This document shows, in pieces, positions 4,260 to 44,669 of a DNA stretch of 58,487 nucleotides (the first letter of the stretch is position 1; each line of letters opens with the position of its first letter). The translations under genes and the position numbers were made by a program. The notes beneath the pieces are model-generated. The model had not been told where the DNA came from. It ran no database searches and saw nothing but the letters and a program-made list of their open reading frames with translations. Source of the DNA: Thermodesulfobacteriota bacterium (GTDB taxonomy: Bacteria; Desulfobacterota_D; UBA1144); NCBI GenBank assembly GCA_030835345.1, contig JAURPH010000015.1, forward strand, positions 1 through 58,487, given 5' to 3'.

Positions 4260-5480
4260 CTAATTTGACCTATTTTTTTTGATAAAAGCATTGACTGACT
4301 GGAGGTCTTTGTCTCCTCTTCCAGATAGATTCACAATTATAGATTGATTTTTTTTCATTTTTTTTGCTACTTTCATTGCATAAAAAAGTGCATGTGAAGT
4401 TTCTAGAGCAGCAATGATTCCTTCTTTTTCAGAGAAATATTGTAATGCCTTTACAGCTTCAAAATCGTTAACTGATTTATATTCAACCCTTTTGATATCA
4501 TTTAAGTATGAGTGCTCGGGTCCAACTCCTGGATAATCTAAGCCTGCAGATACAGAATGAGTTTCTATAACTTGGCCTTGTTTATCTTGAAGGATGTAGG
4601 TTTTGCTACCATGTAATACTCCAACCGATCCAGCTACAATGGTAGCTGAGTGTTGTCCTGATTTAATTCCGCTGCCACCTGCTTCAACACCTATCATTTT
4701 TACTGATTCATCTTTTAAGAAAGGATGAAATAGTCCAATTGCATTAGAGCCCCCACCTACACAGGCTATTAATAAATCAGGCAATTTACCCTCTAATTTC
4801 AAAATTTGATTTCTACTTTCTTTACCAATTATAGATTGGAAATCTCTAACAATCATTGGGTAGGGATGAGGACCTGCAACACTTCCAATAATATAGAAAG
4901 TATCCCTTACATTTGTTACCCAGTCTCTTAGTGCTTCGTTTAGAGCATCTTTCAAGGTTTGAGAACCTGACGTTACAGGGATAACTTTTGCACCAAGTAA
5001 TTCCATTCTCTGGACATTAACCGACTGTCTAACCGTATCAGTTGCTCCCATATATATCTCACAATCTAGGCCAAGTAGTGCGCAAACGGTAGCAGTTGCT
5101 ACTCCATGTTGACCAGCCCCTGTTTCAGCAATTATCCTCTTTTTACCCATTAGTTTTGCAAGTATTGCTTGGCCAATTGTATTATTGATTTTGTGTGCCC
5201 CAGTATGGGCAAGGTCTTCTCTCTTTAAATAAATCTTTGCACCCCCAAGAGCTTTTGTAGTTCTCTCAGCTAAATATAGAGGCGTTGGTCTACCAACAAA
5301 ATCTTTTAGTAATTTTGAAACATCTTTTTTGAACTTATTATTATTTTTGATTTTCTTATAATTCTTTTCTAATTCATCTAGGGCAGGCATTAGTGTTTCA
5401 GATACAAACTTACCACCATAGTCACCAAATCTACCATTAGAGTCAGGCAGTGATGAAAAAGTAACTTTATTTTTTTTCAT
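4260..5480 (-). CDS. trpB: Tryptophan synthase beta subunit
   Basis: TrpB is the PLP enzyme that condenses indole with serine to make tryptophan. The 406-residue frame begins with the typical [19 protein letters not shown] segment and contains the PLP lysine in HTGAHKINN and the glycine-rich phosphate site [10 protein letters not shown]. Length and motifs fit the classical TrpB1 form that pairs with TrpA. Its start overlaps the end of trpF by 14 bases and it is followed at once by trpA, so translation is probably coupled. Confidence 0.97.
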
Positions 5481-41414: not shown

Positions 41415-42572
41415 ATGTCAATAGATATTGCTATGAGTGAGATTAGAGAAGAATATTTAAGTAAGACAAAAAGAGTCGTAATTAAAATTGGCTCAAAAGC
41501 TCTGTCCAATGGTGGTTTATCCATCAGCAAAAAAGTTTTATCAAATTTAGTTAGTTCAGTATGCAATCTTAGGCAAAAAGGATTAGAGGTTATATTAATT
41601 ACTTCTGGTGCAATTGTTGCGGGAAATAAAATATTCAAAATAAATTTAAAAAATCTAAATATAGTTAAAAAGCAAGTCTTATCATCTGTGGGTCAAATAA
41701 ATTTAATGTCTATGTATTCAGAAATTTTTAAAACAAAGGGCTATAGAGTATCTCAGCTTTTACTAACAAATGATATTTTTCAGGATAGGAAAAGATTTTT
41801 AAATGTTAAGACGACCTTACTTGAATTGTTAAAAATGGGAATTGTTCCTATTGTTAATGAAAATGATACTGTATCAATTGATGAGATAATGTTTGGTGAT
41901 AATGATATACTAGCCTCAAAAGTATCTTCAATGATATCAGCTGATTCTCTTATATTGCTAACTGATACAGATGGTCTTTTTGATCAGAATCCTAAAGATA
42001 ATAGTTTGGCTAAGTTAATCAATACAATATCTGAAGATAAGTTTGATAGGCGTGTTTTAAAAGATTCAAAAAAAAATATATCTTTTGGCGGAATGACATC
42101 TAAAATTGATGCCGCACTAAATGTTTCAAAATATGGAATCCCAACAATAATTGCAAATGGTATGAAGATAAAGATTATAGACAAGATCTTCAAATATGAA
42201 AATGTTGGGACAATGATCATTCCAAATAAAAGAACAATTAAGAGTAGAAAGCAATGGATTGGTATGGGTCTCAAGACCGCTGGTAAATTATTGTTAGATG
42301 ATGGTGCAATTGAAGCCATAATTTCAAAGGGCAAAAGCCTTTTACCATCTGGGATCAAATCTTTGGAAGGAAGATTTGTTAAAGGACAACAGGTTGAATG
42401 TGTTTCAATATCCACAGGTCAAAGTATAGCAAGGGGATTAACATCGTACAGCTCAGACGAATTGGAAAAAATTAAAGGTAAGAAATCAAATCAAATAGTA
42501 TCCATTTTGGGCTATAAATATTCAGATGAAGTTATAAACAGAGATAATATGATTGTTGATAAAATTAAATAA
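41415..42572 (+). CDS. proB: Glutamate 5-kinase
   Basis: ProB phosphorylates glutamate in the first step of proline synthesis. The amino-acid kinase domain shows VVIKIGSKALS, ITSGAIVAGN, VNENDTVSIDE and FGGMTSKIDAA; a C-terminal PUA domain follows (GKLLLDDGAIEAI onward). From ATG 41415 it has 385 residues; ATG 41433 (379 residues) is equally possible and nearer the family length. TATACT at 41397-41402 is a possible -10. proA is not adjacent. The 3' end overlaps the convergent VWA gene by 8 bases. Confidence 0.95.
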   Translation: MSIDIAMSEIREEYLSKTKRVVIKIGSKALSNGGLSISKKVLSNLVSSVCNLRQKGLEVILITSGAIVAGNKIFKINLKNLNIVKKQVLSSVGQINLMSMYSEIFKTKGYRVSQLLLTNDIFQDRKRFLNVKTTLLELLKMGIVPIVNENDTVSIDEIMFGDNDILASKVSSMISADSLILLTDTDGLFDQNPKDNSLAKLINTISEDKFDRRVLKDSKKNISFGGMTSKIDAALNVSKYGIPTIIANGMKIKIIDKIFKYENVGTMIIPNKRTIKSRKQWIGMGLKTAGKLLLDDGAIEAIISKGKSLLPSGIKSLEGRFVKGQQVECVSISTGQSIARGLTSYSSDELEKIKGKKSNQIVSILGYKYSDEVINRDNMIVDKIK

Positions 42573-43599
42573 AGTTAAGAATATTTTCAGAGTCTGCATC
42601 ATTTTTAACAGGAACTTGCTTTCTAAACTGAATACTATTCTCTTTTTTCTCAATTTTTATATTTCCATTGTTAGCTCTGTAAGCAACAAACTGCGACCCG
42701 TATGTCTCTTTTGATATTGCATTTAAAATCATTGGAAAATTTTTCGATCCGATAAAAATTGAATGTATACAAATTCCAAGTTTTTTTGCTCTTTCTCTTT
42801 CCTTTCTTACTTCGGTATCTCCAGATGTAGGTATTCCATCAGTAATAAAAAGTATATGCTTATTTCTAAGGCCTCTTCCTTTAAAATCTGATATTGCATC
42901 TTTTAGTGCTTCTTCATAGTTTGTGTTCCCGGAACATTCTGTTTTAGTTGCTTGATGTAGAATTGTTTCATAATCTTTCGTAAAGAATTTTTCTTCAACG
43001 ATTGTCTTATACGATTTATGGTTAAATTCGATATAGCCAACCCTCATTCTTTTTGTCCTTGCTAGCTCAACAACGGCATTTACAACAGATGAAGACCATT
43101 CGCTATAAACTCCCATCATCGATGTACTAATATCTCTAAGGATGGCTATTTCTCCACCCATATTTTCTTTTTCTCTTTGATGAACTCTAGGTAATTGAGG
43201 AGATAAGTTTTGAGACCAAATTGCAGCATCCATTGCATCAACATCATCTATTTCATAAAAAGAATTCATTCTTTTATATCTACGTGGAAGTCCACCAGGA
43301 TACAAACCTCTTTTAGCAATACTTCTTTGAATATTTCCCTCAAGAACTTTCATCACAATTTGTACATTTTGTGCTAGTTCAAAATTTTCTTGAGTGCCTA
43401 CCTTAGAAGCATCGGTATCTCCGGCTCTCTTAGATTTTGTAGCATAAATTTTTTCAGACAATGGAGCATTGTTGATATCACCCTCACCATCATCCTCACT
43501 TTTATTAGAAGGATTTGTTGGTATTTTTTTCTCTGAATCTATTGGTTTGGAATTATCCTCAGTGGTTAAATTATCTTGTAATTCCTCAAGTGCTTGCAT
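42565..43599 (-). CDS. VWA-domain (MIDAS) protein, partner or fusion part of MoxR
   Basis: From the first ATG this frame has 344 residues: an acidic, Asn/Ser/Asp/Glu/Lys-rich linker (1-65), then RGLYPGGLPRRYKRM and a von Willebrand A domain with the metal site DISTS (ILRDISTSMMG), and ITDGIPTSGDTE. Such proteins work with MoxR ATPases as metal-chelatase-like or chaperone pairs. ATG 43599 has no Shine-Dalgarno. The same frame is open upstream to 43773, into the end of moxR, and has the same linker composition, but offers no ATG, GTG, TTG or CTG. So the true product may be a MoxR-linker-VWA fusion made through the A10 run at 43738-43747. Confidence 0.82.
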   Translation of the reverse strand: MQALEELQDNLTTEDNSKPIDSEKKIPTNPSNKSEDDGEGDINNAPLSEKIYATKSKRAGDTDASKVGTQENFELAQNVQIVMKVLEGNIQRSIAKRGLYPGGLPRRYKRMNSFYEIDDVDAMDAAIWSQNLSPQLPRVHQREKENMGGEIAILRDISTSMMGVYSEWSSSVVNAVVELARTKRMRVGYIEFNHKSYKTIVEEKFFTKDYETILHQATKTECSGNTNYEEALKDAISDFKGRGLRNKHILFITDGIPTSGDTEVRKERERAKKLGICIHSIFIGSKNFPMILNAISKETYGSQFVAYRANNGNIKIEKKENSIQFRKQVPVKNDADSENILNFI

Positions 43600-43724
43600 G
43601 AAAGAATCTTCAGCATTTTCAAGTTGCTCTTGACTGATATCTGAGTCTTTATCTTGATTATCCCCAGCTTGTTTGTTCGGAGAATCCTTTTCATATTCTC
43701 CACCCTCTTTTTTTTGTTTATTTG

Positions 43725-44669
43725 CTATTTCTTGGTCTTTTTTTTTTGGTTCTCTAAAGACTCTAGTTTTTGTTCAGCAGCTTCTAAAATTTCTTCTGGG
43801 ACTCTAAAAGGTAAAAGGAATTTTAGAACTTTAAGATCAGATAAATTTGCTTCATTTCTGTTATCTATGACAGCGCTAGCTTTTATAAGTTTTAAAGATT
43901 TTACAAGAAAAGTTCTATCAGAAATCACAGAATTAGATTCATTCAGCCTTTGGTCTTCAACTAACCATGTAATAAAAGAAACTAGCCCCTCTTGAACTTC
44001 TACAGGTATTACAACATTTTGTAAACTTTCATAACTATCATCAAGAGCTTTTTTACCAACTTTAGCGACAAAATTAACAGCTCCATTCTTTGTAGCATAT
44101 AAACCAATTACTTTTTTTACATCTTCCCATTGTTTTCCATAAGATATTCCATTTGAATTAACTTGAATAACAAACCTATCAAGGTTTGCAGGATCCAGTG
44201 GCTCATTATAGTATTCATCTGCTGTAGGGTTACTTGTAGCAATCGCTGTTAATAATGGAATATTCTCTTCTCCATATTTTCTTTCATTTAATATTCTTAG
44301 TAAAACATTCAAGGATTCTCCAGGAGCTCTAGAAATATCATCTAATAAGCAGATATCGGAGGTTAGTATCCCACCTTTTAATATATTTTGTCTAATTATC
44401 TCTCCATCTTTAGTATCCTCTCTTGATATGACTAAATCGCCAACAAGTTCTGATAATCTTGTATCTCTGTGCATTTGATAAAAGAAAAAATCAAGTTCAG
44501 CTGATTTTGATACTATCTCAGACAACATAGTTTTTGCAGTTCCAGGAGGACCCTGAATATAAATATGTTCTCTGGCAACTACACCAAGTAACAAAGCTGT
44601 TTTAACGTCATCATGACCAACAACTAATTCGTCCATTTCAGATTTTAAAGTTTCAAAAGGATTAGACAT
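43725..44669 (-). CDS. MoxR/RavA-type AAA+ ATPase
   Basis: This 314-residue AAA+ ATPase belongs to the MoxR group, which forms hexamers and remodels or metallates partner proteins together with VWA proteins. Walker A is GPPGTAKT near residue 40, Walker B is CLLDDISRA, sensor ATSNPT, and the Arg-containing LDRFVIQV follows. Its C-terminus becomes Lys-rich (ENQKKKTKK) at the A10 run and stops there. A weak AAGG lies 10 bases before the ATG. The gene is upstream of the VWA frame on the same strand. Confidence 0.9.
   Translation of the reverse strand: MSNPFETLKSEMDELVVGHDDVKTALLLGVVAREHIYIQGPPGTAKTMLSEIVSKSAELDFFFYQMHRDTRLSELVGDLVISREDTKDGEIIRQNILKGGILTSDICLLDDISRAPGESLNVLLRILNERKYGEENIPLLTAIATSNPTADEYYNEPLDPANLDRFVIQVNSNGISYGKQWEDVKKVIGLYATKNGAVNFVAKVGKKALDDSYESLQNVVIPVEVQEGLVSFITWLVEDQRLNESNSVISDRTFLVKSLKLIKASAVIDNRNEANLSDLKVLKFLLPFRVPEEILEAAEQKLESLENQKKKTKK
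43738..43747 (-). other. A10 slippery run at the moxR/VWA junction, candidate -1 frameshift site
   Basis: On the coding strand ten A residues follow CC and precede GACC. In the moxR frame this reads CAA AAA AAA AAG, ending in the A_AAA_AAG heptamer used by E. coli dnaX, and moxR stops three codons later (TAG 43727-43725). A -1 shift, or one extra A in the mRNA, continues into the VWA frame, which is open to 42565. A 7-bp inverted repeat GGAGAAT/ATTCTCC (43679-43701) lies downstream, farther than usual for a stimulator. A homopolymer sequencing error is the main alternative. Confidence 0.6.

Follow-up and report, generated by a model that had tools for sequence, protein, structure and literature searches.

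The stretch of DNA analysed here (the window: 58,487 nucleotides (nt), contig JAURPH010000015.1 of assembly GCA_030835345.1, deposited as a Thermodesulfobacteriota bacterium) carries on its minus strand a gene for a MoxR AAA+ ATPase that meets, at a run of ten A residues, a region encoding a linker and a VWA domain in a different reading frame. A programmed frame change, by whatever mechanism, very likely takes place at this run. Judging from the genome sequences compared below, we assign a probability of roughly 0.7 to transcriptional slippage by RNA polymerase, which would produce both MoxR alone and a MoxR-linker-VWA fusion from one gene. An initial annotation of this DNA had proposed a programmed event leading to these same two proteins, and that core inference is strongly supported by the conservation of the run, the frame offset and the short-form stop codon, by the coding character of the gap between the two frames, and by relatives in which the whole protein is encoded in a single open reading frame (ORF). 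The elements of the locus, all on the minus strand, are as follows.

43725..44669, minus strand: MoxR AAA+ ATPase ORF, short product of 314 amino acids, with the AAA core at about 44567-44166 and the Walker A motif GPPGTAKT.
43738..43747, minus strand: A10 slippery run (CC-A10-GACC), the proposed slippage site, present as A9-A11 in 51/51 readable Dadabacteria.
43725..43727, minus strand: TAG stop of the short MoxR product, coinciding with an I/L/V codon in the VWA frame, likewise in 51/51 genomes.
43600..43737, minus strand: start-less first part of the linker in the VWA frame, apparently reachable only by a frame change (ratio of nonsynonymous to synonymous differences, pN/pS; third-position excess; no conserved start).
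42565..43737, minus strand: VWA frame after the run, encoding an acidic/lysine-rich linker and the VWA domain (390 codons plus stop).
About 43149-42670, minus strand: VWA domain with the metal ion-dependent adhesion site (MIDAS) DxSxS..T..D (Pfam VWA 5.5e-9, VWA_CoxE 1e-8; structure search).
42565..44669, minus strand: the whole putatively recoded gene, for MoxR alone or MoxR-linker-VWA of about 701 amino acids (in-frame single-ORF orthologues).

The MoxR frame begins with ATG, extends for 314 codons and ends in CAA AAA AAA AAG ACC AAG AAA TAG. The VWA frame is -1 relative to it and is open from 43773 to 42565, and both frames meet at the A10 run, which is the only run of at least 10 A/T residues in the 58 kb window. 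The first ATG, GTG or TTG of the VWA frame is the ATG at 43599, 138 nt past the run, and no Shine-Dalgarno sequence precedes it (the preceding letters are AATGCTGAAGATTCTTTC). The interval from 43600 to 43737 encodes, in the VWA frame, stretches such as EGGEYEKDSPNK and QAGDNQDK. Thus, the MoxR coordinates, the A10 run, the -1 VWA frame and the start-less gap described in the initial annotation are correct in every detail. The host is a marine Dadabacterium metagenome-assembled genome (MAG) of 0.97 Mb in 15 contigs, of which the window is contig C11, and the closest named relatives of the locus are marine Candidatus Dadabacteria (PMC8115339).

We compared the locus across 58 genomes of the phylum, comprising single-cell and metagenome assemblies. 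A protein search with the VWA part gave a match in 56 of the 58, and 51 genomes, covering 22/22 genera, are readable across the junction. An A run is found at the junction in every one of these 51 genomes, as A9 in five, A10 in 30 and A11 in 16. The length of the run follows family, with A10 in 12/13 members of family f1 and 13/13 of f7, and A11 in 13/13 of f8. The VWA frame is -1 relative to MoxR in 41 genomes, in frame (0) in eight and +1 in two. The +1 pair (G008 and G025) are both A9, and one added A would make each an ordinary A10 member, so their state may reflect either homopolymer error or real drift. The base 3' of the run differs among genomes (G, C or T), and stops in both non-VWA frames lie no more than 4-19 codons from the start of the run. 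The single-cell genome AG-470-J09 has the same A10, and the run is therefore not an artefact of a population consensus. The public record of this genome (L020) is labelled Candidatus Hydrogenedens, yet its locus is that of marine Dadabacteria. At one further locus, L109 of the sponge clade (G041), the VWA match is interrupted by stops and frame changes, as expected of a pseudogene or a poor assembly.

In the eight in-frame genomes, seven of family f2 plus f3, MoxR, linker and VWA form a single ORF of 704-735 codons that retains the A run in all cases. These orthologues align with the split genes through the junction (ISKKKARRDSKSNIEQ versus TSKKKDRDRGSELEP) and strongly support the MoxR-VWA fusion as a real product; both proteins are presumably made. 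On a tree of both domains without the linker, the difference between fused and split states maps to one change, and midpoint rooting of this tree, which has no outgroup, places the split state first. The stop of the short form, in the frame that is +1 to the VWA frame, is kept even in the fused genomes, and the ability to make MoxR alone therefore seems to be retained where the DNA encodes the fusion. Homologues outside the phylum were found neither in plasmids nor in viral contigs, and one scan of genome contigs returned only Dadabacteria or records labelled Thermodesulfobacteriota/Deltaproteobacteria or plain bacterium.

The gap between the MoxR stop and the first usable VWA start evolves as coding sequence in the VWA frame. 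Substitutions there are mostly synonymous in that frame, with pN/pS of 0.07 for genera g1 and g2, 0.08 for g3 and g4, 0.23 for all of f1 and 0.23-0.26 for f8, and the differences between g1 and g2 are dominated by the third codon position (45/21/280 for the three positions). Thus, the impression that the codons upstream of 43599 look translated is borne out by purifying selection. The first VWA-frame start in the split genomes lies anywhere from +34 to +392 nt from the run, with no conserved position (+345 nt in G009 and G010, +392 nt in G026). Relatives with a normal ATG and Shine-Dalgarno sequence for the VWA gene would have spoken for an independent gene; we examined them and this is not the case. 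In genus g2, a TGA lies immediately 5' of the run, and the frame change is therefore possible only within GAACC-A10-GACCAAGAA.

The run itself also appears to be under selection, and its recurrence goes well beyond chance. The rest of the joined coding sequences (109,443 nt) contains 13 A8 runs, two A9 runs and none longer, and loci from the non-marine families, 283.5 kb in all, contain one other A/T run of at least 10 residues on either strand, compared with 24 at the junction. AAA accounts for only 50-52% of lysine codons in f2, f7 and f8. All seven genera of the in-frame families (8/8 genomes with A9-A11) nevertheless retain AAA at the three junction lysine codons, while fused-state genera differ from one another at 0.56-0.79 of four-fold sites and 0.32-0.53 of lysine codons elsewhere. 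By our own arithmetic, which treats genera as independent, the naive chance of 21/21 AAA codons is about 1e-6. The data set holds few other KKK triplets, and none of them is encoded as A9. Separately, G042 and G045 carry a second A9 run close to the 5' end of MoxR: counted from stop to stop, it lies at nt 14 of the frame, near the start codon or before it.

In the genome of the window, an unslipped mRNA would encode MoxR alone (314 amino acids, ending at the TAG 10 nt past the run), and an mRNA that had gained one A, or lost two, would encode the MoxR-linker-VWA fusion of about 701 amino acids. In families f2 and f3, where the DNA is in frame for the fusion, it is the slipped mRNA that would encode MoxR alone. 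RNA polymerase would realign on the A run as in Thermus dnaX; ribosomal -1 frameshifting ranks second as the source of the shift. Bacterial transcription makes insertions that for the most part add one base to an A/T run and that become exponentially more frequent with its length (PMC5574713), and orthologues that require different shift directions indicate transcriptional realignment (Antonov et al., PMC3711429). The initial annotation had named as the signal either a dnaX-like A_AAA_AAG or slippage on the A run. The long run has stood up well, and the heptamer proves less apt, since the run is followed by different bases and is never shorter than nine; for the same reason, slippage by the polymerase is favoured. 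Transcriptional slippage is favoured, though not proven, by a run length that stays constant, by a frame relation that does not, and by the lack of any conserved structure that could stimulate frameshifting.

The chief alternative, possible but distinctly less probable, is programmed -1 ribosomal frameshifting on A_AAA_AAG or A_AAA_AAA, of the type known from E. coli dnaX or chlD, by which the fusion would come from a uniform mRNA. A_AAA_AAG is in phase in the window and in f8, with A-rich equivalents in the other families, and exactly -1 is required in 41/43 split genomes; a -1 shift would also truncate the in-frame fusions. Frameshifting in chlD on such heptamers reaches up to 63% efficiency (PMC3711429). 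However, six to seven A residues suffice for this mechanism, yet the run always has at least nine, even with half of the lysine codons being AAG, and two genomes require +1. No Shine-Dalgarno sequence or stem-loop at the junction is common to all families. A hairpin does lie downstream of the run in families f7 and f4, but downstream structure has a mean z of about 0 in f2 and f8, and the core of the f7 hairpin starts about 25 nt past the run, which is distant for a stimulator (typically 5-9 nt). This hairpin, from about 20-25 nt past the run, is conserved in f7, the sponge Dadabacteria (for example, L052, about 5018-5070), and its loop holds a VWA-frame ATG in most members, not in G027 or G035. 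Several points weigh against the preferred reading as a whole: nearly all of the sequences come from MAGs or single cells; without the two +1 cases, -1 ribosomal slippage on A_AAA_AAR would account for the split as well as the fused state; and the locus offers no target operon, its neighbours being housekeeping genes.

All explanations other than slippage in transcription or on the ribosome are, even taken together, very improbable. One of them dispenses with a frame change and has the VWA protein translated separately, by reinitiation or internal initiation at the ATG at 43599 or at a non-AUG codon overlapping the MoxR stop. While most genomes have a downstream ATG, and the MoxR stop overlaps an I/L/V codon in all of them (ATAG, CTAG, CTGA), the position of the ATG is not conserved, some genomes are start-less for 345-392 nt, ATA, CTA and TTA are very poor starts, and purifying selection acts in the VWA frame on the codons between the run and the start. 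Moreover, a separate start leaves both the A run and the fused orthologues unexplained. We rejected it, as there is no conserved start or Shine-Dalgarno sequence and evolution upstream of the candidate starts is of the coding type; we regard it as very unlikely. Still less likely is phase variation at the level of DNA, in which replication slippage in the run would toggle the fusion between cells. Both A9 and A10 are present within genera g4 and g14, as such toggling would produce, but run length is constant within families, unlike the scatter of a phase-variable tract, and nearly every member of the phylum has the gene, which is not a surface gene. Homopolymers are error-prone and the source is a MAG, so errors in sequencing or assembly, or decay of the gene, also had to be considered. 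The same offset recurs, however, in 41 species, the single cell AG-470-J09 among them, each with A10 or A11, and strong purifying selection acts on both sides of the junction. A simple assembly error, which had been named as grounds for refutation, was tested through these relatives and is ruled out by conservation of the run in 51 genomes; we give this explanation almost no weight.

The MoxR part matches the Pfam models bpMoxR (1.8e-22), AAA_5, AAA_3 and AAA_lid_8, and its sequence matches RavA and 2r44. Walker A is present in 51/51 genomes and sensor 1 in 50/51, and a complete MIDAS (DxSxS, T, D) is found in all 51. The Walker B motif of MoxR (about 44350-44330, minus strand) has LLDD in place of the usual DE in 50/51 genomes, such that the catalytic Glu is replaced by Asp phylum-wide. 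A model of the VWA core (predicted local distance difference test score, pLDDT, of 64) has a VWA fold, with the NorD VWA among the structure-search matches; it supports the fold only. The AlphaFold model of the whole fusion is poor (mean pLDDT 53) and was used only to show a long low-confidence linker. The chelatases were considered as an alternative family. CobN/ChlH gives no match at E 0.001 in 55/58 genomes, including that of the window, and the MoxR-VWA protein is therefore not a CobN-dependent chelatase; the Mg_chelatase model for ChlI-type ATPases falls below its cut-off on the window protein. Membership in the Mg/Co-chelatases (ChlD/CobT) was rejected on the absence of CobN. A CobN/Mg-chelatase H-like ORF (1,248 amino acids) exceeds the family cut-off only in G024 and G025, both of family f5.

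Well-studied MoxR/VWA couples suggest what the two products might do. The NorQ hexamer carries one NorD, whose VWA domain plugs the pore and is preceded by a disordered linker (PMC9976466, PMC13036017). By analogy, if some MoxR subunits carried a tethered VWA, the rings would be mixed, in a set ratio: MoxR hexamers in which a minority of subunits bears a covalently tethered VWA, an arrangement that may serve to fix the ratio of motor to partner, for which couples of the NorQ:NorD type use two genes. We infer the production of both proteins, the transcriptional mechanism and the composition of the ring. With somewhat less assurance than for slippage itself, we favour the broader proposal that in Dadabacteria the proportions of bare and VWA-tethered subunits in the MoxR ring are set by slippage of RNA polymerase at an ancient A run, and that selection has acted on the run and not on the frame, so that the gene has moved between split and in-frame states without either protein ceasing to be produced.

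This arrangement resembles several known systems. In Thermus thermophilus dnaX (A9), and in the two-ORF dnaX of Chlorobi and others (A10), a run of 9-10 A residues likewise yields a short AAA+ protein and a C-terminally extended form, and both in-frame and split DNA versions occur (PMC5009743, PMC3711429, PMC1088944). Here, the gene and function are different, the short form being MoxR and the extension a VWA domain, and one phylum holds the in-frame and split states of a single orthologue. E. coli dnaX shares the A_AAA_AAG of the window junction, but here the run is longer than required and there is no conserved upstream Shine-Dalgarno sequence or close downstream stem-loop. The frameshifted chlD genes (fs-chlD; small and medium subunits of Mg/Co-chelatase) likewise produce a short AAA+ and a long AAA+-linker-VWA protein from one gene, with in-frame fusions in relatives (PMC9227772, PMC3711429), whereas in Dadabacteria the ATPase is of the MoxR/RavA and not the ChlI type, and the run of 9-11 A residues without a consistent stem-loop points to transcription rather than the ribosome. 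NorQ-NorD, RavA-ViaA and CoxD-CoxE each combine a MoxR hexamer with a VWA partner that has an intact MIDAS (PMC9976466, PMC13036017). In those couples the partner is a separate gene product, whereas here it would be tethered to the ATPase by recoding.

A search of the open-access literature returned no case of slippage in MoxR and no paper on frameshifting in Dadabacteria, an absence that is no proof, and the portion of the MoxR-vWA survey available to us (PMC7159879) does not mention frameshifts. Thus, the statement in the initial annotation that no case had been described for MoxR holds, although the architecture as such was already known from frameshifted chlD. What is new is the MoxR case; the production of AAA+ and AAA+-VWA proteins by frameshifting in chlD and slippage in dnaX are known. 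Across this large family of chaperones it has yet to be settled how many VWA partners a MoxR ring carries and whether they need recruiting. Evolution seems to have answered this in Dadabacteria by producing bare and tethered subunits from one gene, which would make subunit stoichiometry directly testable. The phylum also offers a natural series of split and in-frame states and varied run lengths in which to follow the evolution of a slippage site. A gene caller that assumes a single frame per gene would see here two ORFs or a VWA gene cut short, and a conserved fusion protein is therefore probably missing from predicted Dadabacteria proteomes.

The neighbours of the gene at locus L030 are an amino-acid kinase with a PUA domain (ProB-like), GST and YceG. 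In the genome of the window, dnaX (L115; minus strand of contig C7, about 22.7-23.1 kb) consists of one ORF, in which an A11 run lies close to codon 385. No conserved A run was seen in dnaX of the other Dadabacteria families. All 11 readable dnaX genes of the marine family, this one included (L115, L146, L148-L156), carry A9-A11 at codons 374-413, and marine dnaX is a candidate for Thermus-type slippage yielding gamma and tau.

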